DNA of 64,000 nt. Source: Acidobacteriaceae bacterium (GTDB lineage: Bacteria; Acidobacteriota; Terriglobia; Terriglobales; Acidobacteriaceae). The stretch's first letter is position 1. The number at the start of each line of letters is the position of its first letter. The notes under the pieces were generated by a model that worked only from the letters and a program-made list of their open reading frames with translations, was not told the origin of the DNA and made no database searches. The DNA lies in contig DAIDLI010000201.1 of NCBI GenBank assembly GCA_027449545.1, positions 1-64,000 on the forward strand, read 5' to 3'. A program made the position numbers and the translations under genes. Shown here piece by piece: positions 1-29,855 of the stretch.

Positions 1-622
1 GCTGATTGAGGAGTTGCATCAGCTTGGGCTGGCGGTCGCTGGCGTAGGTTCCCAGGTAGCTCAAATCGCAGCGGAACGCTTCGCGCTTGTGGGTGGGCCG
101 GTACAGCTCGGGATCAACCGAGCAGTAGAACGGCAATGCGCACCGTGCGCCAAACCTCTCTTCCAGCTCGTGCAGGATTGGGCCGCCGGTGAAGCTGAGA
201 TAGGCGGCGAATTGCGGGATCTGGGCGGCCTCAAGGTAGGATGTTTTTCCTTCGGCGCGCAGCCGCTCGATGGTGATGGGCGTGTCGATATCGTAGAAGA
301 CCAGGGGGCCGCGGCCGGCGTTCACCAGTTCATTGGTGGCGGCAATCGCGTCGGGGAAATAGGATCCGATGACGACCACGTCGGCATCCTTGGTCAGGCG
401 CAGAAAGCTGCGCCTGCTCGCTTCCCAGTCGTCGTACATATGAACCGTGCAGAAGTCCGGGTGGGGAAGATCGCGGTTGTTGCGATACCACTCCAGGTCC
501 TTCTCGACGAATTCGATGCGGTGCCCGCGCCGCGCCAGTGCCTTGCACAGCGAGCGGTACGTTGTGCCGTGTCCGTTGCCCCATGAGGAAGTGATGGCCA
601 GTCCAAAGATGACAATCTTCAT
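1..622 (-). CDS. CgeB-like glycosyltransferase, 3' end outside window
   Basis: The reading frame is open from the ATG at 622-620 to the window edge (207 codons, C-terminus missing). The product begins MKIVIFGLAITSSWGNG, a Rossmann-type first strand and loop typical of GT-B glycosyltransferases, and carries a later segment FRCDLSYLGTYASDRQP, which matches the start of the second domain in the two neighbouring CgeB-like proteins (FVGNRLPDRE and WIGNWGDDER). The start overlaps the stop of the upstream gene as ATGA (622-619), so translation is probably coupled. It is the third of three related glycosyltransferases in the same operon. Predicted role: cytosolic transfer of a sugar from a nucleotide donor; donor and acceptor unknown. 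A frame with no stop over 207 codons and clear similarity to its neighbours makes the gene call strong; the specific function is inference. Confidence 0.85.
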   Translation of the reverse strand, partial: MKIVIFGLAITSSWGNGHGTTYRSLCKALARRGHRIEFVEKDLEWYRNNRDLPHPDFCTVHMYDDWEASRRSFLRLTKDADVVVIGSYFPDAIAATNELVNAGRGPLVFYDIDTPITIERLRAEGKTSYLEAAQIPQFAAYLSFTGGPILHELEERFGARCALPFYCSVDPELYRPTHKREAFRCDLSYLGTYASDRQPKLMQLLNQ

Positions 623-1746
623 ACGTGCTCTCCGGGAACGGTGCTTGCAGCAGGTTGCGCGATGCTTACCGGAGTCTGCCGCCGACGCAGACAATCGCGG
701 AAGGCGGCATCGGCCGTCTCAGCGCGGCGCGCGTAGCTATGATGGCGGAGCGCTCGGTCGCGCAGCGCAGTGCCGATGCGGCGTCGGTCCTGCGGAGAAT
801 GCCGGCGCAGAGTCTCTACGATTTCCTGGGCGGTGCGCGCCACCAGGATTTCCTTTTCCGGCTCGAAGAAGCTGTCGATTCCCGGCCACTCGTCGCATAG
901 CAGGCATGCCCCTGCGCCAGCGGCTTCAAAGACCCGGGTGGGCGGTGAAAAGCCGCAGTTGGCCATCGAAGCGCGGTTGATGTTGAGCACGATGCCCGCA
1001 GAGCAGTTGATGCGATTGTGGTCGGCGGTAGGAACATGCCCGATCCAGCGCACATTGGCCGGCAGCCGCTTATCGCCCCATCCTTCTCCCCCCAAGAGGA
1101 AGCGTTTTTCGGGCGCGAGTTCCGCAGCCTTCAAAAAGAGCTCGTTTACGCGTGCTTCCCGATCAGGCAGCCGGTTGCCGACGAATGCCAGGTCGCATCT
1201 CAGCTCGGCGTCGGCCGGAACTGGAAAATGAGTCTCCGGATCGAGACCGTTGTAGATGCTGGAGTAGCTCCGGGCGCCAAGTTCAAGGTAGGCATTGCGA
1301 ATCTCTGGACCGCCGCCGTAGGTAAAGATGGCGTCATAACGCGGAATGGCGCGATGAAACGCGTCACCGGGGTTTTCGTGCAGCCGCGCGATGGTGGCGG
1401 GCGCATCGACATCCCAGAAGATCACAGCGCTGCGGGGAAGGCACTCCAGCACACGCTGCTCCAGCAGTTCGTCATCCACCCCGATGCCGCTGTGCTTGAT
1501 GACAACGTCGGCCATGGCGGCCCGGCGCAACATCGCATCGATGTCGGTGGCAGGACGGTAGACGACCGACTCCACGTAGGAGAAGTCGCCCTGGTCCCGA
1601 TGCTGCTGGCGCCCATAGGCATCGGGCTCGGCGAATACAATCCGATGGCCCATGCGCGCCAGGTACTTGTAACAGCCGCGGTAGTAGGTGGCAGCGCCAT
1701 TCCAGTAGGACGACGTGATGCTCGAACCGAAGACAAACAGGTTCAA
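619..1746 (-). CDS. CgeB-like glycosyltransferase
   Basis: A 375-residue GT-B type glycosyltransferase. The N-terminal half begins LNLFVFGSSITSSYWNG; the second half holds the nucleotide-sugar side, with FVGNRLPDRE, the GHVP loop and the acidic EAAGAGACLLCDEWPG motif that is typical of CgeB/Glyco_trans_1_2 domains. I chose the TTG at 1746-1744: it overlaps the preceding stop as TTGA and has a perfect AGGAGG (1759-1754) seven bases upstream. The ATG at 1764 would sit inside the preceding gene and lacks that spacing. It is the middle of three CgeB-like paralogues that probably act in sequence on one glycan. Substrate unknown. Confidence 0.88.
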   Translation of the reverse strand: MNLFVFGSSITSSYWNGAATYYRGCYKYLARMGHRIVFAEPDAYGRQQHRDQGDFSYVESVVYRPATDIDAMLRRAAMADVVIKHSGIGVDDELLEQRVLECLPRSAVIFWDVDAPATIARLHENPGDAFHRAIPRYDAIFTYGGGPEIRNAYLELGARSYSSIYNGLDPETHFPVPADAELRCDLAFVGNRLPDREARVNELFLKAAELAPEKRFLLGGEGWGDKRLPANVRWIGHVPTADHNRINCSAGIVLNINRASMANCGFSPPTRVFEAAGAGACLLCDEWPGIDSFFEPEKEILVARTAQEIVETLRRHSPQDRRRIGTALRDRALRHHSYARRAETADAAFRDCLRRRQTPVSIAQPAASTVPGEHV

Positions 1747-2867
1747 CGGAGGACCTCCTCGCAAATGGCCGTAAGCTGCTCGGCGCGATGCCGGCAGGTG
1801 TGACGCACCAGAACTGTTTCGAGCCCGCGGGCGGCCTGCTGTTCAGCCGCCTTGCTGTCGGTGAGCAAGGTCCGCAATGCGGCGACCATCTCGCTGGTGC
1901 TGTGGACAACTTGGAAATCGCCGGGGCGGAAGAGTCGTTCGCTGTCGATCCACGGCGCGCTCACCAGAGGGATGCCGCAGGCAAGAGCTTCAAAGACGCG
2001 GATCGTCGGAATCCCGGCCATCGCTCGCACATATTGCTGGCGCGGAATATGAACGGTAACTCGCGACTGCGCGAAGGTGGCCGGCCCATCGAGATTGGGA
2101 AGATAGCCGCCATACCGGGTGCGCGCAAAGTCAAGCGCCGCCAGCGCCTGCGGCGGGTACCGCACCCCGAAGACCTTGAAACGATACTCCGGCATCTCGG
2201 CGCTGGGGCGCAACAGATACTTGCAGATCTCCGCCGAGCGCTCGTCGTCGCCCCAGTTGCCGATCCAGACCACATCGATCGATTTCGTGGGAGCCTTCAG
2301 CGGCCGGAAGACGGTGGTGTCGGCGGCTTCATGCAGCGTCCAGGTGTGCGGGATATTGAAGCCGATGCGGTAGATTTTGCGCAGCGCTTCTCCGAATGCG
2401 ATCACGCCATCCATCCGGTCCACGCCGAGCAGGCGAATCTGTTCCGGCGTAGAAGACGCGCGATGATGCGTATCGTGGAAGAGCAGCCGGAAGCTTAGCC
2501 GCTCGCGGAGCGCGAGCAGGTGTTGCGCCAGTTGCGGCGGGTTCCACTCGTGCAGAATGACGATATCGGTATCGCGCAACAGGTGCTGCCAGTGCTCCAA
2601 CTCGTTGAAGGCGTCGCGGCCCTCGCGATCATACGGATGCACATGCAGATCGGGATAAGCGTCAGAAAGAGCGCGCAGAGAGCGATCGCCCAGGCTTTCT
2701 TCCCTCAGATTGCAGATGGACCATTCCTCGGCAGGCTCGAAGATCGTTACGTTATGACCGCATTCACCCAAGGCGCGCAGCAGCCCGCGCAGAAAATGAG
2801 CGTTGCCGTTGTTCCAGTCGGAGCGCACGGCATGGGCAAAGTAGGCGATGCGGAACTTACCGGTCAT
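1743..2867 (-). CDS. CgeB-like glycosyltransferase
   Basis: 374 residues. The N-terminus (FRIAYFAHAVRSDWNNGNAH) is a GT-B Rossmann start; the middle has VWIGNWGDDERSAEI and the C-terminal part RVFEALACGIPLVSAPW followed by FRPGDFQVV, the donor-binding acidic motif of family GT4/CgeB-type enzymes. It is separated by 11 nt from the GT4 gene upstream and overlaps the next CgeB-like gene by four bases. With its two paralogues it forms a run of retaining-type glycosyltransferases in a sugar-nucleotide operon, so assembly of an oligosaccharide or surface glycan is the likely role. Donor and acceptor cannot be read from sequence. Confidence 0.88.
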   Translation of the reverse strand: MTGKFRIAYFAHAVRSDWNNGNAHFLRGLLRALGECGHNVTIFEPAEEWSICNLREESLGDRSLRALSDAYPDLHVHPYDREGRDAFNELEHWQHLLRDTDIVILHEWNPPQLAQHLLALRERLSFRLLFHDTHHRASSTPEQIRLLGVDRMDGVIAFGEALRKIYRIGFNIPHTWTLHEAADTTVFRPLKAPTKSIDVVWIGNWGDDERSAEICKYLLRPSAEMPEYRFKVFGVRYPPQALAALDFARTRYGGYLPNLDGPATFAQSRVTVHIPRQQYVRAMAGIPTIRVFEALACGIPLVSAPWIDSERLFRPGDFQVVHSTSEMVAALRTLLTDSKAAEQQAARGLETVLVRHTCRHRAEQLTAICEEVLR

Positions 2868-2878
2868 AGTGGCGATCT

Positions 2879-3985
2879 TTATGCGACAGAGTGCTCCGCA
2901 AGGACAGGCTGCGAAACGGAGAGGAGAAGGTGGAGATAGCTCTTTGCCATCTTACGGGCGGTGAACTGCTGGGCTCTGCGACGGGAGCGCGCCCGGGCTC
3001 GCGCCAGCAAGCCTCCATCCGCTGCCAGCGCAGCCAGTAGAGAAGAAAGGGAAGCTGAGTCTTTGAAGTAGAGCGCGGCGTCGCTCCACACTTCGCGAAG
3101 AGAGGGAATGTCGTTGGCCACTACCGCACACCCGCAAAGCGCAGCTTCCAGCGGGGCCAGTCCGAATGGCTCATAGCTGGAGGTGCAGATGTAGATGGCG
3201 CTCTGCCGCATTACCTCCAGCAACTCTTCCTCGGTGAGCCGGCCCAGCAGCCGTGCCTGTCCGCAGCTCTCTTCCATGTACGACATCTCGTGTTCGGTTT
3301 CGCCCGCAATCAGGATCGGAACGGGCGATTCGACGTTGCTGAGCATCTTCAGGTTCTTGCCGTCGTCCCAGAGGCGGCCGGCAGTGACGGCTTGCAGATA
3401 GCACTGGGCAGGCCGCGACGATAGAGAAAGCGTGCGGCCATTGGGAATCACGTAGGTCTCTGAAGGAAGCTCGTAGTTGGCCGCCAGCGCATCCAGCATC
3501 CATCGTGTGGGAGCAACTACGGCATCGGCCTCCCTTAACCCGTCCTGGACCAACTTGTTATATCGGTCCAGCCAGTCCGAAGCCGGCAGCGCTCCATTTC
3601 GGCATGCTTTGGCCCAGCTAAGCACATCGCTATGTGCGACGACGATGCGCGGCATGGTCCCCTTGAGCGCACCCAGGCAGAATTGGCTGCTGAGGAGGAT
3701 GTCCGGGCAGAACTCCCGGACGATGCGCTTCAGGAGAGGCTCAGCCTCGCTCATGGCGCCCCAGTTGTCCTGCATCCACTCGAGCGGGGCATCGCAGGCC
3801 GCGAAGCGGAACTTCGATCCCCAGCGGCTGACCTGCGCAGCCACCCAGTCCAGTTGGGATGATGTGGGAATGCGGCCGAGGCTCACCAGGGCCACCGCGC
3901 AGCCGCTCGCCAAAAGCTCGCGCGACAGCTCTGCTGTGAATGTCCATACACCGCCAACGGCGTCAGTGGTCATCAGCACGCGCAT
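2879..3985 (-). CDS. GT4-family glycosyltransferase
   Basis: 368 residues. It starts MRVLMTTDAVGGVWTF, the usual first strand and glycine-rich loop of GT4 enzymes (glycogen-synthase-like fold), and has the C-terminal EX7E donor motif in YEPFGLAPLEAALCG, preceded by AGRLWDDGKN, the start of the second Rossmann domain. Start: ATG at 3985 gives the complete first strand; a second ATG at 3973 (one-base overlap with the upstream TGA) would truncate it. The 13-nt overlap with the radical SAM gene indicates one transcript. Expected to be a cytosolic retaining glycosyltransferase; sugar specificity unknown. Confidence 0.9.
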   Translation of the reverse strand: MRVLMTTDAVGGVWTFTAELSRELLASGCAVALVSLGRIPTSSQLDWVAAQVSRWGSKFRFAACDAPLEWMQDNWGAMSEAEPLLKRIVREFCPDILLSSQFCLGALKGTMPRIVVAHSDVLSWAKACRNGALPASDWLDRYNKLVQDGLREADAVVAPTRWMLDALAANYELPSETYVIPNGRTLSLSSRPAQCYLQAVTAGRLWDDGKNLKMLSNVESPVPILIAGETEHEMSYMEESCGQARLLGRLTEEELLEVMRQSAIYICTSSYEPFGLAPLEAALCGCAVVANDIPSLREVWSDAALYFKDSASLSSLLAALAADGGLLARARARSRRRAQQFTARKMAKSYLHLLLSVSQPVLAEHSVA

Positions 3986-5295
3986 GTGCCTGCCCCCTGT
4001 TCGAGTTGCTGGAGCGGCAGCGGATGCTGCTCCTGGATATCGCTGTAACCCCGCTCAGCAAATAGGCCCAGATAGAAGGAATGCGCCCGTTCCCAGGCGG
4101 TCTCGTCGGGTTGCGCGCCAAAGGTCTCCACATACTGCGGGCTCCCCGGGAAAGGAAACATGGGGACCGGTTCGCTCACCCAGACGTCCGCCGCCTTGAG
4201 GCGAGACTGAAATTGTGCGACCAGCGCTGCGTCGTCGTGATCGGTCTTGATCAGGTTCGCCTGCACCCAGGGAATGTGACGCCGCGCGTGAATCAGGAGT
4301 TCGGCAATGCGCTCGGTGCCGACCCGGCAGTTCTTGTTCATCTCCTCGCGGCCGGCTTCGGTGACGGACTCGACTCCACATTCGAAGGAGATGCAATGCG
4401 CGCGTCCCAGCAGATCAAGGCTCTCTTCGTTCCACAGGTCGATGCGCGACTGGAAGCCGATGGATATGGGACGTTGCGCGATCTCTTCCAGCAGAGTCCG
4501 TACTTGTTTTCCGACTCCAAATATCTCATCGATGAAGTAGACGTAACCCACGCCGCGGGCGATCAACTCGTCGATCTCTTCCAGTACGGCACTTACGTCA
4601 CGTTCACGAAATTTGTTGCGGAAGAGAGTCTTGTTGCAGAAGGTGCAGGAGTAGGGGCATCCCCGCGCGAACTCAACCTCAGCGCCGAGACGGATGTGGT
4701 CGCCCCCGTGACCGGGAAATACGTGATGCTTGTGCGTGTGCAACTCGACTGGATAGCGCGAGTAGTCGAGGGCGTCGATGGCGCACATATCAGTCACGCC
4801 GAGGCCCTGACCCAGGTGGAGCGCACCATCGGCACTGCGCCATGCGCAGCCTGAAATTGTCTCCCAGGGCAGGAGTGGGAGCAGCGGAAGCGTCTGGTCG
4901 GGCTCACCGCGAAGAACGACATCGGCGCCGGTCTTTTGCAAAGCCGCGCGCGGCGTTGCGGAACCATGCGGGCCAATGAGTACCTTCACGGATTTGCGCT
5001 CGAGAGCAGAGATCCACTGCCGCGGGACGCGCAGCTCCGGCTGTGGACACCGCCAGAAGAGGTAGGAAGGTGCGGTGGGTATCACGAGGAAGTCTTCTCC
5101 GAACCCCGCCAGGCGCGTCTTCACCTCGGCGGATGTGAGCGCTTCCATGTGGGCGTCCACGAGCAGAACCTCGTGACCGGCCTTGTGCAGCGTCTGCTCG
5201 GCGCAAAGCAACTCAATCGGGAAATGTGGCTCTGGGCAGCCGAAATAGGTACTGCCCTCGAAGGTCCACTTCGGATTGACAAGAGCAAATTTCAT
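3973..5295 (-). CDS. B12-binding domain radical SAM protein of the glycan operon
   Basis: 440 residues. Residues 1-140 form a cobalamin-binding-like Rossmann domain (ALVNPKW at the start, LLVDAHMEAL, LIGPHGSATP, RGEPDQTL). A radical SAM core follows, with the iron-sulfur ligands C213-X3-C217-X2-C220 in RGCPYSCTFC. Later strands include YFIDEIFGVG, ISFECGVESV and NLIKTDHDD. Such proteins use S-adenosylmethionine and often methylcobalamin for radical methylation or rearrangement. The start ATG overlaps the upstream stop as ATGA. I recall, without being able to check, that a TIGRFAM family of B12/radical SAM proteins marks a conserved glycosyltransferase cassette in rhizobia; this gene and its neighbours resemble that setting. 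The reaction here is unknown; modification of a sugar or lipid carrier is inference. Confidence 0.9.
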   Translation of the reverse strand: MKFALVNPKWTFEGSTYFGCPEPHFPIELLCAEQTLHKAGHEVLLVDAHMEALTSAEVKTRLAGFGEDFLVIPTAPSYLFWRCPQPELRVPRQWISALERKSVKVLIGPHGSATPRAALQKTGADVVLRGEPDQTLPLLPLLPWETISGCAWRSADGALHLGQGLGVTDMCAIDALDYSRYPVELHTHKHHVFPGHGGDHIRLGAEVEFARGCPYSCTFCNKTLFRNKFRERDVSAVLEEIDELIARGVGYVYFIDEIFGVGKQVRTLLEEIAQRPISIGFQSRIDLWNEESLDLLGRAHCISFECGVESVTEAGREEMNKNCRVGTERIAELLIHARRHIPWVQANLIKTDHDDAALVAQFQSRLKAADVWVSEPVPMFPFPGSPQYVETFGAQPDETAWERAHSFYLGLFAERGYSDIQEQHPLPLQQLEQGAGTCAC

Positions 5296-6386
5296 GCGAC
5301 CACCCCCAGAGCGGCTGCCTGGGAAGTATTTCCTGCGTAGCGAGTCTCTGAATCGGATTGGATCTCTCGCCAGAAGGCATGAATATCCGTGAGGATATCG
5401 GCGACGCTGCGCCGCGGGCTCCAGCCGGTGTCGCGCTCCATCTTGGCGGTATTGGAGATGTAGAGCGGCTGGTCGCCGGGGCGAACAGCACGGTTCTCCA
5501 AGATGGGTTTCTTGCCTGTGCGCTTTTCAATGGCCCGCAGCATCTCCAGGATGGAGACAGCGCGGTCCATGCCTCCGCCGATGTTGTAGATCTGTCCGCG
5601 GCTCGTGCGAACGTGCTTGCGCGCCAGCAGCATGGCGTCGATGAGGTCGTGCACGTGCAGAATATCGCGCACCTGAAAGCCGTCGCCGTAGATCGCGATG
5701 CGCTTGCCGCCCAGGACGGAATAGAGGAAATGCGCCACCCAGCCCTGATCTTCGGTTCCGAACTGGCGTGGGCCAGCGATGCACGACATGCGGAATACAA
5801 CGGTTGGCAGGCCGTAGATGCGCGCGTAGTCGCGCACGTACTGATCGGCGGTTCCCTTCGAGCAGCCGTAGGGCGAGTGGAAATCGAGAGGTTCGTCTTC
5901 TGTGACCCCGCGGAACGACTGTTCGCGCGCTCGATATTGCGCGCCGGTCGTAACCACCTCCAGCCGTTCCAGCGCGCCATAGACCTTGTTTGTCGAGGTG
6001 AACAGCAGGAAGGGCTTACGGCCGGAGAGACGCGCCGCTTCCAGAACATTGAGAGTGCCCTGGGCGTTCACCTGGAAGTCGCCAGCCGGATCCTCGACCG
6101 ATGTGGTGACCGCAACCTGCGCGGCGAAATGGTACACCTCCGTGGCATCGGCGATCGCTTTCTTGACAGCCTGCGCATCGCGCACGTCCCCTTCGATGAC
6201 TTCGAGGTTGTTGTCGCTTGCCTTGCTGCGCAGCCAGTCCAGGTTGCGGACGACGCCGGCGCGGGAAAGATTGTCGAAGATCCTAACCTTGAGTCCGGCG
6301 GTCGCCAGCAGGCGCTCGGCCAGATTGGAGCCTATGAAACCTGCGCCGCCGGTGATGACAGCCGTACGCGCGGTGTCCACTTTCAT
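5292..6386 (-). CDS. NAD-dependent epimerase/dehydratase (extended SDR)
   Basis: 364 residues from the ATG at 6386; a longer frame upstream has low-complexity arginine/alanine-rich sequence and no homology-like character, so I reject it. The protein shows the extended-SDR pattern: nucleotide-binding GGAGFIGSNLA near residue 13, GDVRD, the FTSTNKVYG strand, the catalytic SPYGCSKGTADQY (YXXXK) and substrate-region RMSCIAGPRQFG. It resembles NDP-sugar epimerases of the CDP-paratose/tyvelose 2-epimerase type (the FTSTNKVYG and YGCSK motifs), but the exact nucleotide sugar cannot be told. It lies 41 nt downstream of a second SDR gene and overlaps the radical SAM gene by four bases. Confidence 0.9.
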   Translation of the reverse strand: MKVDTARTAVITGGAGFIGSNLAERLLATAGLKVRIFDNLSRAGVVRNLDWLRSKASDNNLEVIEGDVRDAQAVKKAIADATEVYHFAAQVAVTTSVEDPAGDFQVNAQGTLNVLEAARLSGRKPFLLFTSTNKVYGALERLEVVTTGAQYRAREQSFRGVTEDEPLDFHSPYGCSKGTADQYVRDYARIYGLPTVVFRMSCIAGPRQFGTEDQGWVAHFLYSVLGGKRIAIYGDGFQVRDILHVHDLIDAMLLARKHVRTSRGQIYNIGGGMDRAVSILEMLRAIEKRTGKKPILENRAVRPGDQPLYISNTAKMERDTGWSPRRSVADILTDIHAFWREIQSDSETRYAGNTSQAAALGVVA

Positions 6387-6427
6387 TTGAGGTCGTGCTC
6401 CCTTCTTCGCTGCTGTGGCGCGATCGA

Positions 6428-7549
6428 CTACGCCGTCAGCCCGTACGCGCTCAGTTCGCTGAGCATCGTCTCTGCCTTGTCCTCGGCCTCCTGTCCCACC
6501 AGCCATTCAGCCAATTCGCTGAATCCTTCTTCGTGCGTTACCTGGGGTTCGTATCCCAGCAGCGCGCGTGCTTTGGTCAGGTCGGCGTAACAGTGGCGGA
6601 TATCGCCTGCGCGGTATTTGCGGGTCACCACAGGCTCGATGGATTTACCCAGCGACCGGGCCAGGATCTCGGCCACGCGGAGAATACTGATGGGTTTGCC
6701 ACTGCCGACATTAATCACCTCGCCATCGGACTGGCGGCGCTCCATTGCCAGCATGTTGGCGCGCACAATGTCGTAGACGCTCACAAAATCGCGCATCTGC
6801 CGGCCGTCTTCAAACACCAGCGGCGGCTGGTTATTGATCAGCCGGGAAGCAAAAATTGCCGCCACGCCGGTGTACGGGTTAGAAAGCGCCTGGCGCGTAC
6901 CGTAGATGTTGAAGAACCGCAGCGCCGTCACCGGAATTCCGTAGGTGCGGCCGTAGATTAGACAAAGCTGCTCCTGGTCCCGCTTGGAGAGCGCGTAAAC
7001 TGAGGTCGTCTCGGAGGGCTTTTCCTCGTCGGTGGGCGTGGGCCTGAGGATCCCACTGCAGAACTTGCAGCGCAGTTCCCATTGCCCGGTCTTCAACTGC
7101 TGGAGCGCGCGCGTTGACGGCGCGGCATGGCGCGCGCACTGTGAACACACATAGCAGCCCTCGCCGTAGATCGACATGGAGGAGGCGACGATCAGCTTTT
7201 CCGGTGCCTGCTTCATGTCGAGCATCGCCTGCAGCAACTCGGCGGTGCCCTGAGTGTTGGTGTTCATGTAGCGGCTGATCTCGTACATCGACTGGCCTAC
7301 GCCCACCGCGGCTGCCAGATGAAACACCACATCCACACGGTTCAAAGCGCGGCGCACCGTCATGGGATCGCAGACGTCGCCGATCATCAACTCGACATCG
7401 CGCGAGAGATAATCCGGCGCGTGCCCGCCGTGAACCTGCGGGGTCAGGTTGTCAAGCACGCGTACCGCATGGCCTGCATGCAATAGCTGGTCGGCCAAAT
7501 GCGAGCCGACGAAGCCGGCGCCTCCGGTAATCAGAATCTGCTTTCTCAT
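6428..7549 (-). CDS. NAD-dependent epimerase with four-cysteine insert
   Basis: 373 residues from the ATG at 7549, which overlaps the upstream stop as ATGA. Extended SDR: GGAGFVGSHLAD near residue 10, GDVCDPMTV, VASSMSIYGEG, catalytic Y185-X3-K189 in SVYALSK, and ALRFFNIYGTRQ. Between the SIYG strand and the catalytic tyrosine is an unusual insert of about 40 residues with C135-X2-C138 and C161-X2-C164, a zinc-ribbon-like pair. I recall a similar insert in dTDP-L-rhamnose 4-epimerase-type enzymes (WbiB-like), so that activity is a candidate; unverified. Probable role: supply of an NDP-sugar for the adjacent glycosyltransferases. Confidence 0.9.
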   Translation of the reverse strand: MRKQILITGGAGFVGSHLADQLLHAGHAVRVLDNLTPQVHGGHAPDYLSRDVELMIGDVCDPMTVRRALNRVDVVFHLAAAVGVGQSMYEISRYMNTNTQGTAELLQAMLDMKQAPEKLIVASSMSIYGEGCYVCSQCARHAAPSTRALQQLKTGQWELRCKFCSGILRPTPTDEEKPSETTSVYALSKRDQEQLCLIYGRTYGIPVTALRFFNIYGTRQALSNPYTGVAAIFASRLINNQPPLVFEDGRQMRDFVSVYDIVRANMLAMERRQSDGEVINVGSGKPISILRVAEILARSLGKSIEPVVTRKYRAGDIRHCYADLTKARALLGYEPQVTHEEGFSELAEWLVGQEAEDKAETMLSELSAYGLTA

Positions 7550-8484
7550 AAGGTGGCCACTTCCTTTTCCACGCAGCGCGGAAGACCGTTGGTTGTGAGA
7601 TGTGAGCCGTAACGCTCGGCCGCCCAAGCGGCAAAGTCGGCAAACTGTTGCAGATCGCGGGGCGGGCTGGTGTGGTGTTCTTCTACACCGAGGTGTGCAG
7701 GGGTGAAGCAAAGCGTCAGCGCAACCCGGAAGGGCTCAAGCGCAGCCATTTGCCGATCGAACCACTCCACCGCATTGGGGCGGAAGGAGTCTGCCCAGCT
7801 CAGCCCGGTGCGCAAATACTGCACCCCATGTTGCTTCATCCATGCCACCGCACCGTCCAGGCGGTGATCTTCAAAATGGAACCACTGACACAGGCCCACG
7901 CTGCCGTCGGTGGGGAATTTGGCGGCCGCGAGCTTGGGGCGCCCTTCGCTGGTCAGCAGGCCAAGATAGTAATGGCGGTAGTAAGACGAGCCCTCGGCTT
8001 CTTTGTGCCGCGTCTCCGCCGGCCATGCCGGGGGCAGATCATAGAGACTGTACCAGTGGAAGCGCTCCGGCAGATTGCGGGTCAACTCCAGCGTCTGCTC
8101 CAGTCCGAAGAGCTGCACCTCTTCCGCCCCAAAGGAAGATGCGCCGGCTTCTGTCACCCACACCGGCTTACCGGTCACTTCCGCCGCCTCGCGGATTCGA
8201 TCGGGCCACTCTCGGATCTGCCAGTGATTCCAATCGAGGGGAAAACCGTGGACGCCTACTGCATCGACTGAGTCCAGGACTCCATAGGAGCGCATCAGCC
8301 GCAGAAAGTCGCAATCGCATGCGGAGATTCCGCCCAGCACGACCGGAATCTGGGGATTGACTTTGCGAATTGCGGCTGAGGCCAGCTTGACCATCTCGCT
8401 GAACCGCTTCCATTCCGGATCAAGGTGGAAGTTCCAATGCGAAAGATTATTAGGTTCGTTCCAAAGCACGAGTGCTTCGAGCAT
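7546..8484 (-). CDS. Glycosidase-like TIM-barrel protein, apparently circularly permuted
   Basis: 312 residues. Glycoside hydrolase clan-A signatures are visible: WNEPNN with putative acid/base E10, and VWVTEAGAS with putative nucleophile E112, similar to GH39/GH5-type beta-glycosidases. In those families roughly 100-150 residues of barrel precede the WNEP strand; here WNEP sits at residue 8, while a segment at about 197-292 (QWFHFEDHRLD, YLRTGLSWAD, LCFTPAHLG, HTSPPRD, ERYG) looks like the missing first barrel strands. No such sequence can be read upstream: the frame closes at a TAG 64 nt before the start. The ATG has AGGA eight bases upstream. Either a natural permutation or a family that acts without the usual topology. 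No signal peptide, so cytosolic; substrate unknown. Confidence 0.8.
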   Translation of the reverse strand: MLEALVLWNEPNNLSHWNFHLDPEWKRFSEMVKLASAAIRKVNPQIPVVLGGISACDCDFLRLMRSYGVLDSVDAVGVHGFPLDWNHWQIREWPDRIREAAEVTGKPVWVTEAGASSFGAEEVQLFGLEQTLELTRNLPERFHWYSLYDLPPAWPAETRHKEAEGSSYYRHYYLGLLTSEGRPKLAAAKFPTDGSVGLCQWFHFEDHRLDGAVAWMKQHGVQYLRTGLSWADSFRPNAVEWFDRQMAALEPFRVALTLCFTPAHLGVEEHHTSPPRDLQQFADFAAWAAERYGSHLTTNGLPRCVEKEVATL

Positions 8485-8711
8485 GGATTGCGTCCTGGTA
8501 GTGCCTCGATCGGTTGCGTGGAAGAGTGAAGGAAAACTGAGCGCGCGCTACGCGGCCGGAACGGACAACCGGTGCAGCACAAACGGTTTAGAAGAGATGA
8601 GAACAGGACGGGTTGTATGAGCCGTCGGACTCACTGCACCCGCCCTGGGACTTTCCCTAGGCGTTGTTGGCGGCGCAAATGCGCAGCAGGATCAAGCCGG
8701 CTGGAAGGCGC
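8485..8711. other. Spacer between ugd and the glycosidase-like gene
   Basis: 227 nt without a credible gene. The minus-strand frame of the downstream gene is closed by a stop at 8550-8548 and the residues between that stop and the start do not look like protein sequence of the family. I see no clear terminator or strong promoter, so whether the downstream eight genes have their own promoter is undecided. Confidence 0.5.
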
Positions 8712-10184
8712 TCAGGCCACACGGTAAGGCGTCACGGCGCTGTGCAACTCCGAAGGTTCAGTGGCAGCCTCGACCGCCGCGCGACCCATCGAGACGTACG
8801 TGAAGCCGCGCTCCGCCATCACGGCCGGGTGATAGAGGTTGCGCCCGTCGAAGACGATCGGCTGGGCAAGCCGCGCTTTTACCTCGCTGAGATCCAGAGT
8901 GGCGAATTCCGGCCAATCCGTCAGGATCAGCAGCGCAGCGGCGCCGTCCATGGCCTGGAGCGCCGATTCTGCAAATTCCAGGCGGGGAGAGACGATGGCC
9001 CGCCGCGCATTTGCCATCGCGGCGGGATCGAAGGCGGTGATCGTGGCTCCTTCGGCGATCAGACTCTTCACCAGAGAAATCGCTGGCGACTCGCGGATGT
9101 CGTCGGTACCGCCCTTGAACGCCAGCCCGAGCACGGCAAGGTGCTTCCCGCGCAGATTCCATAGCGTGGATCGCACTTTCCGGAGAAATTGATCTCGCTG
9201 ACGCTCGTTGATGCGCTCCACCTCGCGCAAAAGCGTAAGCTCGGCCCCCATCTGCTCGCCGATAGAACAGAAGGCCTTGATGTCTTTGGGAAAGCAGGAG
9301 CCTCCGTAGCCCAGCCCAGGACGCAGAAACTGCGACCCGATGCGGCGATCCAACCCGATGCCGCGCGCCACTTCTTCCACATTGGCATTGACCTGCTCGC
9401 ACAGGTTTGCGACGGAGTTGATGAAGCTGATCTTCATTGCCAGGAACGCATTGGAGGCATGCTTGATCAGCTCCGCGCTCTTCGCGCTGGTGCGCAGCAG
9501 AGTTGCCTGCCGGGTTTCATTCGAGAATAGCGTGACGGCACTGGGACGTCGCGAGTAGCTGCCATCGATGAGCGGCCGATAGATGCGTTCCATGATACGG
9601 AAGGCGCGATCGCTACACGTCCCGATGATGATACGGTCTGGGTAAAGGAAGTCGGTAACGGCGGTGCCTTCGCGCAGAAATTCGGGATTCGACACGATGT
9701 CTGCTTCGCCTGGCCTCACGCCGTTGCGCCGCAGCACCCGTGCGATCCAGTCGCTGGTGTAGACCGGCACGGTGCTCTTTTCAACCACCACCTTATAACT
9801 GTCGATAGAGCGGGCGATCTCGACGGCCACTGCCTCCACGTAGGAGAGGTCTGCATCGCCGCTCTCCAGGGGCGGCGTGCCCACTGCGATGAAGACCACC
9901 TGCGACGCGCGAACCGCGTCGGCAAGAGAAGTGGAGAAGCGCAGGGAAGTTGGGCTCTGGCTGCGGAGCAATTCTTCCAGCCAGGGTTCGTGAATCGGAA
10001 TGCGGCCTTGTTGCAGGCATTCAATCTTCTCCGCATCGCTGTCGATGCAGATCACCGAATGACCAATTTCCGCAAAACACACCGCGGCGACCAATCCTAC
10101 ATAACCGCACCCGATCACCGCGATGCGAACGGGCTCCATGCTTCCAGGGCTGGCGCTCGACACCACTTCCTTGCTTTTACTCAT
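8712..10184 (-). CDS. UDP-glucose 6-dehydrogenase
   Basis: About 490 residues. Oxidises UDP-glucose to UDP-glucuronate with two NAD. The N-terminal NAD domain has IAVIGCGYVGLV; VGTPPLESGDADL and EKSTVPV follow; the catalytic cysteine is in GYGGSCFPKD, and the C-terminal domain carries GLAFKGGTDDIRESPA. Candidate starts: GTG 10196, ATG 10184 (preceded by AAGGTGAAA, preferred) and ATG 10139 (directly before the conserved domain). It lies 227 nt upstream of the glycosidase-like gene, same strand, so is either the first gene of the glycan operon or a separate unit feeding it. UDP-glucuronate (or UDP-xylose derived from it) is the likely precursor for the cluster. Confidence 0.95.
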   Translation of the reverse strand: MSKSKEVVSSASPGSMEPVRIAVIGCGYVGLVAAVCFAEIGHSVICIDSDAEKIECLQQGRIPIHEPWLEELLRSQSPTSLRFSTSLADAVRASQVVFIAVGTPPLESGDADLSYVEAVAVEIARSIDSYKVVVEKSTVPVYTSDWIARVLRRNGVRPGEADIVSNPEFLREGTAVTDFLYPDRIIIGTCSDRAFRIMERIYRPLIDGSYSRRPSAVTLFSNETRQATLLRTSAKSAELIKHASNAFLAMKISFINSVANLCEQVNANVEEVARGIGLDRRIGSQFLRPGLGYGGSCFPKDIKAFCSIGEQMGAELTLLREVERINERQRDQFLRKVRSTLWNLRGKHLAVLGLAFKGGTDDIRESPAISLVKSLIAEGATITAFDPAAMANARRAIVSPRLEFAESALQAMDGAAALLILTDWPEFATLDLSEVKARLAQPIVFDGRNLYHPAVMAERGFTYVSMGRAAVEAATEPSELHSAVTPYRVA

Positions 10185-10312
10185 TTTCACCTTCACTGGT
10201 GGCTATACGAAAGCGGCAGAGACCCTCCCCGCCTATTGGCGCTTGGATGCGCAACCAGCACAATCTGTCGCCAACTGCTGTCCTGCTGGCCCGGTCTTCC
10301 GGATGCAGAAGC

Positions 10313-29762: not shown

Positions 29763-29855
29763 GGCGCCGTCCCTACGGGACTCGACATGATCTCAATGGC
29801 TGCAATCCCCACGCTGAAGCGCGGGGCTAACAAACGTTGCGCCTACGGCGCGATG
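29763..29855. repeat. Right inverted repeat of the RAYT element
   Basis: Inverted match of the left arm: GCCGTCCCTACGGGACTC at about 29766, the exact 24-base complement at 29807-29830 (CCCCACGCTGAAGCGCGGGG then CTAA), and TTGCGCCTACGGCGCGATG near 29838. Confidence 0.85.

Follow-up and report, generated by a model that had tools for sequence, protein, structure and literature searches.

The DNA analysed here (hereafter the window) comprises 64,000 nucleotides from an Acidobacteriaceae bacterium (GenBank assembly GCA_027449545.1) and begins at base 1 of contig DAIDLI010000201.1, referred to as C201. At this contig end lies a set of sugar-handling genes grouped around a B12-binding radical SAM protein (rSAM), which is the subject of this report. 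On the minus strand, from position 10184 down to position 1, eight complete genes and one truncated gene were found: a UDP-glucose 6-dehydrogenase (UGD, 8712..10184), a glycosidase-like protein (GH, 7546..8484), two SDR-family proteins (SDR1, 6428..7549; SDR2, 5292..6386), rSAM (3973..5295), a GT4 glycosyltransferase (2879..3985), and three CgeB-type glycosyltransferases (CgeBa, 1743..2867; CgeBb, 619..1746; CgeBc, 1..622), the last of which is truncated by the contig end. The UGD start was placed at the ATG at 10184; the open-reading-frame list instead begins this gene at a GTG at 10196. UGD belongs to the UDP-Glc/GDP-Man dehydrogenase family (TIGR03026, 430 bits against a cut-off of 190), SDR1 matches PF01370 and resembles a GalE-like sugar-nucleotide epimerase/dehydratase carrying a Cys4 insert, and GT4 lies above the cut-offs of PF13439 and PF00534. 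The PF13524 cut-off was reached by two of the three CgeB-type proteins (CgeBa, 112.5 bits; CgeBb, 131.4 bits), and the truncated CgeBc reached none. A preliminary description had taken these genes for a nine-gene, one-strand operon joined mostly by 4-nt overlaps. The shared strand was found as described, and 4-nt overlaps do occur at GH/SDR1, SDR2/rSAM, CgeBa/CgeBb, and CgeBb/CgeBc (−4 each), but these are only four of the eight junctions; the others are rSAM/GT4 (−13), GT4/CgeBa (+11), SDR1/SDR2 (+41), and UGD/GH (+227 nt). The 227-nt gap sets UGD apart from the rest of the operon, upstream of the conserved cassette.

The same description expected the operon to run on past the window, and it does. 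Another contig of this assembly, C75 (4.3 kb), shares 223 nt with the end of C201 at 96% identity and supplies the rest of CgeBc (L035:3-782; loci carry numbers with the prefix L). After CgeBc, it encodes on the opposite strand a methyltransferase (MT), a nucleotidyltransferase (NTP), and a fourth CgeB-type protein (CgeBd), which together form a convergent block. MT scored 392.5 bits against TIGR04290 (cut-off 300) and was the only TIGR04290 match listed for its own genome. All twelve genes occur unbroken and in the same order on an 18.9-kb contig from a very close relative (L036), whose proteins share 93–99% identity with those of the window and C75 (98% for CgeBc in the right frame). The joining of C201 and C75 rests on L036, because the 96% identity of the overlap may mean a strain variant. 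At this overlap (window 3-225 against L035 1-223), more than one strain may have entered the assembly, or a divergent copy may be present. The left flank thus adds three more cassette genes, and no characterised polysaccharide locus was seen in these 4.3 kb. The core of the first reading holds, but its gene list does not; the list lacked MT, NTP, the fourth CgeB, and the permutation of GH described below, and one of its two SDR epimerases turned out to belong to the CDP-tyvelose 2-epimerase family.

Membership of rSAM in a B12/radical SAM TIGRFAM, mentioned in the preliminary description, was verified: the protein matches TIGR04295 (B12_rSAM_oligo) with 618.5 bits (cut-off 400) over positions 1-422 of the 422-position model. 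The cysteines of its CxxxCxxC motif (C213, C217, and C220) were invariant in 32 of 32 aligned rows. Its structural model had a predicted local distance difference test (pLDDT) score of 90.4, and the nearest folds were TsrM, MgmA, OxsB, AprD4, TokK, and CysS over most of the chain. Judging from family and fold, the TIGR04295 enzyme is probably a C-methylating, cobalamin-dependent radical SAM methylase. Alternatively, rSAM might rearrange or dehydrate the sugar, by ring contraction as in OxsB or by 1,2-diol dehydration as in AprD4, which would lead to an unusual cyclitol or deoxysugar. AprD4 is indeed the top PDB profile match (47.6 bits), and both OxsB and AprD4 stand within the first ten structural matches; however, the Foldseek E-values place two methylases, TsrM and MgmA, closer, and a rearrangement is considered improbable. 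The solved relatives of MT are CmoB-type chains, a 'ToxA protein', and EvdMO1.

The GTDB species genomes were scanned with the rSAM protein of the window, which yielded 183 relatives, and the best 80 loci were analysed with up to 10 kb on each side. The counts for these 80 loci are best-hit counts and include contigs cut short. They were rSAM (80 loci), SDR1 (66), GT4 (65), SDR2 (64), CgeBa (62), and CgeBb (62). Further genes were a CgeBd-like protein (54), MT (53), GH (49), NTP (25), a CgeBc-like protein (13), histidine phosphatase (14), an alphaproteobacterial-type inositol-phosphate synthase (INO1, 11), UDP-glucuronate decarboxylase (UXS, named from plasmid annotation, 10), UGD (6), and phosphopentomutase (1). 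With its presence near 6 of 80 loci, UGD was ruled out as a core gene; it is accessory, and the conserved unit exceeds the nine genes of the window. The order GT4-CgeBa-CgeBb-CgeBc/d followed rSAM on the same strand within 7.5 kb in 53 of the 68 loci having at least 6.5 kb from the rSAM frame start to the contig end, and SDR1 preceded rSAM in 63 of 72 loci; therefore, the core cannot credibly be attributed to chance. The 15 exceptions comprised nine loci without GT4, CgeB, or UGD in the span (L061, L063, L065, L066, L068–L071, and L079), two with UGD only (L054 and L056), one with GT4 and CgeBa exchanged (L093), one with GT4 only (L103), and two cyanobacterial loci without the last CgeB in the span (L088, and L074, where one occurs farther along). 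The genes therefore stand together in most loci, and in five deep acidobacterial genomes followed up they form two blocks rather than being singly scattered.

The carriers included Acidobacteriota, Myxococcota and other Deltaproteobacteria (Sorangium included), three cyanobacteria, and Alphaproteobacteria (Azospirillum, rhizobia). Moreover, the cassette was present in 9 of 72,556 plasmid records (Azospirillum 5, Bradyrhizobium 2, Tistrella 1, Geminicoccaceae 1). The occurrence in rhizobia stated in the preliminary description was confirmed by two plasmids of Bradyrhizobium sp. 195, both of which encode on one strand INO1, histidine phosphatase, CgeBd, NTP, MT, GH ('beta-xylosidase'), phosphopentomutase, SDR1, SDR2, rSAM, GT4, three glycosyltransferases, and UXS. 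The TIGR04295 cut-off was passed by 7 of 396 genomes of the phylum, by 52 of 200 genomes of the family of the window, and by 2 of the 8 genomes listed for its own genus. Among the 200 family genomes, rSAM was detected in 54 (E 1e-80), the TIGR04290 MT in 54 (1e-60), and the permuted GH in 56 (1e-60). At least one of the three was present in 59 genomes, of which 49 had all three, the other ten having rSAM alone (2), rSAM with GH (2), rSAM with MT (1), MT with GH (4), or GH alone (1). Pairwise Fisher P values ranged from 1e-37 to 1e-43, without correction for shared descent. The window almost certainly contains one copy of a real glycan-building cassette conserved across at least four phyla.

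Some additional features of these loci were recorded. The Bradyrhizobium copies (L118 and L140) are two diverged whole-cassette copies on two plasmids typed as conjugative. The phosphopentomutase inside these operons (L118:10419-11624 and L140:10408-11613; the former scoring 459 bits against TIGR01696, cut-off 341) hints at a pentose phosphate step, and one weaker homologue was found in L112. L042 and L048 are labelled Rhodanobacteraceae and Verrucomicrobia but fall inside Acidobacteriaceae on the rSAM tree, and may be mis-binned contigs or the result of recent transfer. A GT9-like protein adjoins 19 of the 80 cassettes (22 by another gene call), for example L037:15709-17481, and a HAD phosphatase adjoins 11 (13 by another gene call); both are missing between CgeBc and MT on C75 and L036.

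The chain of GH showed an unusual order. The NEP acid/base motif, which belongs to strand 4, lies at its N-terminus, and the sequence expected for strands 1-3 occupies the final hundred residues. The two glutamates of clan GH-A, at the NEP site of strand 4 and at the nucleophile site of strand 7, were present in 48 of 48 aligned permuted copies; GH does not have the strand order b1 to b8 along its chain that belongs to this clan. In nine loci (L078, L080, L084, L085, L086, L088, L099, L107, and L113) and in two plasmids (L119 and L141), SDR2 carries at its N-terminus a fused homologue of canonical order, of which L074 has a partial copy, and Blast aligned the permuted GH with this homologue in swapped order for all nine fusion loci. 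When 48 permuted sequences were compared with 9 canonical ones by hhalign, the native order gave two swapped alignments (scores of 270.7 and 134.5), and placing GH residues 196-296 first gave a single alignment scoring 402.6 over 279 columns; 196 was the best of eight cut points tried in a rotation scan. The AlphaFold2 model (pLDDT 85.7) contains eight strands forming a complete barrel, with the order read as b4-b8, b1-b3. In native order, GH is below all Pfam and NCBIfam cut-offs (PF11790, 18.8 of 21; PF00150, 15.8 of 23.5), and the re-ordered sequence passes the Pfam Cellulase model PF00150 (25.1 against 23.5). Since no Pfam match at E 1 was obtained for three fused domains of canonical order, GH is assigned to the clan on the strength of its motif, its model, and remote matches. 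Foldseek of the GH model against the PDB returned one match under E 0.001 (an aldolase, template-modelling (TM) score on the query 0.31), and the best 50 matches had TM scores on the query of at most 0.46, as would be anticipated when a search that depends on chain order is given a permuted protein; this is in itself no proof.

Judged by sequence comparison and the model, GH adopts a clan GH-A barrel in circularly permuted form, its chain running b4-b8 then b1-b3; the acid/base and the nucleophile are predicted to be Glu10 and Glu112, respectively. A gene-calling error, with the real protein starting upstream and having the normal order, would also produce an apparent permutation, and an upstream extension of the GH open reading frame does occur in GC-rich relatives. 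However, four publicly annotated plasmids have the beginning of GH overlapping the end of MT (4 nt in L117, L140, and L142; 1 nt in L118), the permuted order is identical in all 48 full-length copies aligned, and the model is already a complete 8-strand barrel, which makes such an error extremely improbable.

The permuted and canonical forms were further compared with respect to their catalytic residues. The fused canonical domain has both glutamates in L086, L088, L099, L107, L119, and L141, and is without them in acidobacterial L078 (Q/Q), L080 (Q/Q), L084 (R/A), L085 (H/Q), and L113 (R/Q). Four of these five Glu-less fusions share their locus with a permuted GH, and the fifth genome carries a permuted GH elsewhere. 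The canonical copy in L074 keeps its nucleophile, and its first part is absent from the frame. A whole-genome GH search covered 16 carrier genomes, many of them drafts, and one plasmid (the L088 genome lay outside it). The permuted GH was found in 12 of the 16 genomes (L051, L061, L063, L065, L066, L069, L070, L104, L105, L108, L110, and L113), and both E10 and E112 were present in all 12 copies, that of L069 being cut by a contig end; this search found no permuted copy in the genomes of L074, L086, L099, and L107. Fifteen of the 16 genomes hold one GH form with both catalytic glutamates, and in the sixteenth (L074) the gene is incomplete in the assembly. An intact permuted and an intact canonical GH were not found together in the genomes checked. 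On the rSAM tree, which was built by a quick method and has several open forks, the intact-canonical carriers appear at three places, namely the cyanobacteria, L107, and L099 with L119 and L141. It seems that the permuted GH took over and that the canonical domain then decayed or was lost, a direction that we infer.

SDR2 scored 398.6 and 390.3 bits against the two structures of CDP-tyvelose 2-epimerase (TyvE), the next best score being 189.4, and by sequence it is by a wide margin a TyvE family member, i.e., a sugar-nucleotide 2-epimerase of the TyvE/RfbE type. The Thr/Tyr/Lys triad and the TNK segment are invariant in 25 rows. Compared with the TyvE proteins of PDB entries 9RL0 (T. atlanticus) and 1ORR, SDR2 retains Thr132-Asn133-Lys134, Tyr173, Lys177, and Trp216, the TyvE residues being those named in PMC7851689 and PMC13098431. 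With respect to the CDP-binding Trp207, Trp210, and Phe211 of TyvE, Trp216 and Phe220 of SDR2 are invariant, and the likewise invariant His219 aligns by eye with Trp210, the second nucleotide-site tryptophan according to PMC7851689. The best solved relatives of SDR1 are GalE-like (4-epimerase-like) SDRs. The SDR1 insert contains two CxxC pairs of zinc-ribbon-like appearance in the window and in six of the next seven acidobacterial rows (L051 being the exception); these pairs are absent from the 16 alignment rows from L072 on, some Acidobacteriota among them. NTP is RmlA-like. The solved relatives of GT4 are Tll1590, a GlgM-type maltose-1-phosphate synthase, MshA-type chains, and PimA. An identification of GT4 as an MshA orthologue was considered and is unsupported by either the profile rank or the aligned acceptor-site region. 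A simple hydropathy scan, which for CgeBc covered the C75 part only, detected no 19-residue stretch above a mean of 1.5 in any cassette protein except the Rossmann start of UGD (2.11). Soluble cytosolic assembly is favoured since the scan shows no clearly membrane-like stretch.

The cassette can be divided. Eleven loci have no glycosyltransferase within 7.5 kb after rSAM; nine of them have MT nearby, seven of these nine also SDR2, and the other two (L054 and L056) have SDR2 and UGD. In five such deep acidobacterial genomes, the GH sites (L143–L147) hold GH, GT4, CgeBa, CgeBb, and a further CgeB together, with SDR1 in three of the five, and MT, SDR2, and rSAM form a stand-alone trio at another site of the same genome. 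Similarly, CgeBd-NTP-MT-GH forms a second block in Sorangium (L148 and L152), Lichenibacterium (L149), and the L113 genome (L150). This indicates that MT-SDR2-rSAM and GH-glycosyltransferase can be separate modules, and the three members of the stand-alone trio therefore probably all act on one sugar.

A link with inositol emerged from the neighbouring genes. INO1 lies beside the cassette in 11 of the 80 loci, all alphaproteobacterial, where it adjoins the MT-GH block; a histidine phosphatase accompanies it in 10 of the 11, none being found in L109. INO1 was also present in four of six annotated plasmid stretches (L117, L118, L140, and L142, not L119 and L141). A second INO1 subfamily, which gave no hit to the first at 1e-10, directly follows UXS in three Sorangium loci, with 66, 63, and 62% identity to the INO1 of the window's own genome. 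It was also located in a split-cassette acidobacterial genome (L143:2313-4163, opposite strand, about 5 kb from the GH-glycosyltransferase block, 72% identity to the window genome's own). All 12 alphaproteobacterial permuted-GH genomes checked have INO1, against 18 of 190 in a sample of the class (a figure that includes one such carrier); the 12 are not independent, since eight belong to Azospirillum-like bacteria. Among 40 carriers, several of them incomplete metagenome-assembled genomes (MAGs), INO1 occurred in 29 of 33 with a permuted GH, in none of 4 with the canonical form only, and in 1 of 3 with an undetermined form. Inositol may be the acceptor, although we hold this view tentatively. 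Bradyrhizose, the inositol-fused sugar of the Bradyrhizobium O-antigen, was considered as a product on account of INO1 in the Bradyrhizobium operon, and nothing links it to the cassette; PMC4743980, on this sugar, names rfaL, gdh, and an eleven-gene cluster, and its main text does not contain the word 'radical'.

Building on the observed gene content, order, and co-occurrence, most of the protein families, and the permuted order of GH, we infer the substrates, the product, and the C-methylation in the following scheme. NTP, where present, would make an NDP-hexose (NDP, nucleoside diphosphate), of which SDR1 would invert C4 and SDR2 would invert C2, by homology. The TIGR04295 enzyme would then place a methyl group on an unactivated carbon of this sugar, and MT (TIGR04290) would methylate a hydroxyl. 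The acceptor on which GT4 begins the chain would be soluble, with inositol phosphate the likeliest candidate by analogy with the first mycothiol step, and a phosphatase of the histidine type or HAD family would take off the phosphate. Three or four CgeB-type transferases would extend the chain, with UGD or UXS supplying an acidic or pentose donor in some lineages, and GH, acting in the cytosol as a biosynthetic enzyme, would trim or transfer the chain. The evidence is about evenly balanced for the cassette as a cytosolic assembly line of a methylated, probably inositol-based oligosaccharide, and a soluble intracellular product has an even chance in our estimate. The full combination, namely a novel cytosolic glycan class in which an inositol-primed, C-methylated oligosaccharide is made by a mobile cassette whose permuted GH replaces a canonical ancestor decaying to a pseudo-enzyme domain on the 2-epimerase, is conceivable but doubtful. 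The preliminary description had proposed an unusual modified sugar or lipid; a sugar chain is now favoured, and no cassette gene itself points to a lipid.

Several observations weigh against this scheme. For TIGR04295, TIGR04290, and these CgeB proteins, neither substrate nor product is known, and some radical SAM relatives of rSAM, such as AprD4 and OxsB, do not methylate. The score of rSAM against the B12-binding model PF02310 (19.5 bits) is below the cut-off of 32.1. SDR2, MT, and NTP were recovered at only 64, 53, and 25 of the 80 loci, respectively, some of them on cut contigs. NTP was not found in four Azospirillum-type genomes and the L109 genome, all searched whole; it was positive in 17 of 28, and was also absent from the four canonical-GH-only genomes and two plasmids. 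GT4 scores better with Tll1590 and maltose-1-phosphate synthase than with MshA-type and PimA chains, and the inositol-phosphate-binding residues are not clearly kept in its aligned acceptor-site region. INO1 is absent from four of the 33 permuted-GH genomes (L076, L085, L089, and L113, all MAGs) and from all four canonical-only genomes; therefore, inositol cannot be needed by every version of the cassette. In the family of the window, 143 of 147 good genomes have INO1, so its occurrence on contig C173 is no evidence there.

Two other products were weighed against the cytosolic oligosaccharide. The genes could constitute a surface glycan locus, building a repeat unit or side chain of a lipopolysaccharide, capsule, or exopolysaccharide, with the genes for export and polymerisation located elsewhere. 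Several glycosyltransferases, UGD or UXS, and SDR epimerases are typical of such loci, and the best solved relative of GH is PslG, which belongs to an exopolysaccharide system. An ABC transporter ATPase (PF00005) was seen in 4 of 112 flanking proteins scanned. However, the named recurring neighbour families, which are not every recurring family, include no lipid-carrier sugar transferase, flippase, polymerase, or ligase, and the flank tally (112 of 154 listed proteins) contains none of these among the 25 listed of 162 families; a surface glycan is regarded as unlikely. Alternatively, the cassette could serve a glycosylated small molecule or glycolipid, i.e., a secondary metabolite whose aglycone is made elsewhere and whose sugar is tailored by rSAM and MT. 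Natural-product pathways often contain cobalamin-dependent radical SAM enzymes, and EvdMO1, one of the solved MT relatives, comes from orthosomycin synthesis. Yet none of the named recurring neighbours, among the families scanned, resembles an aglycone gene, and the same core in four phyla is unusual for a secondary metabolite, so that this alternative also appears rather improbable.

The more distant surroundings were also inspected. Among the 112 flanking proteins scanned (flanks of L072–L115), topoisomerase IB was found 2 times, DUF1003 2 times, and phospholipase D 4 times, and Ku/LigD, Mn-catalase, and treZ (trehalose hydrolase) lie near some of the plasmid cassettes. A stress-island context was considered from such flank genes, and no claim is made, as a control rate is lacking. 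In the window itself, the sole Rfam match at the gathering threshold is an Acido-Lenti-1 RNA (RF01687) at 29807-29852 on the plus strand (39.1 bits against a gathering value of 37).

A literature search found no paper on TIGR04295, on TIGR04290, or on a radical SAM protein with CgeB and a glycosyltransferase, and the cassette anatomy, the permuted GH, and the inositol link appeared in no paper returned. The cassette represents a pathway of about 9 to 15 genes found in several phyla, on chromosomes as well as plasmids (two typed as conjugative), whose product is not known. Through it, an orphan B12/radical SAM family becomes connected with sugar-nucleotide chemistry, so that a substrate class open to testing, namely an NDP-sugar or the sugar of an oligosaccharide, can be proposed for TIGR04295. 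The permuted GH, with the complementary decay of the canonical form, and the inositol link take it beyond an ordinary orphan cluster, and with GH nature has carried out an experiment, seldom available, in which a very common enzyme fold is circularly permuted.

Among known systems, the nearest to rSAM are the cobalamin-dependent radical SAM enzymes TsrM, MgmA, OxsB, TokK, and CysS, with TM scores on the rSAM query of up to 0.69; their identity is 13–18% and their substrates are unrelated. TIGR04295 and TIGR04290 (meth_Rta_06860), whose curated cut-offs are exceeded by the cassette proteins, are both 'hypoth_equivalog' models that name no reaction. The first mycothiol step is a GT4-type transfer onto inositol phosphate, and the first mycothiol enzymes (INO1, MshA, and a phosphatase) can be compared with the plasmid INO1 and its accompanying histidine phosphatase and GT4. 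The plasmid INO1 of L118 has the mycothiol INO1 model as its closest model (528.8 bits, below the cut-off of 638). However, the cassette GT4 is not specifically MshA-like, and a PIG-L-type cluster is near only 4 of the 80 loci. PslG, with 31.3 bits in all, aligns with GH over both catalytic stretches but with the halves swapped, residues 2-153 of the query matching 131-301 of the PslG chain (21.9 bits) and 200-295 matching 25-130 (weak, 8.0 bits). Circular permutation of a glycosidase barrel is known from GH70/GH13; that case belongs to another clan, whereas the present GH is placed by its motif and model in clan GH-A.

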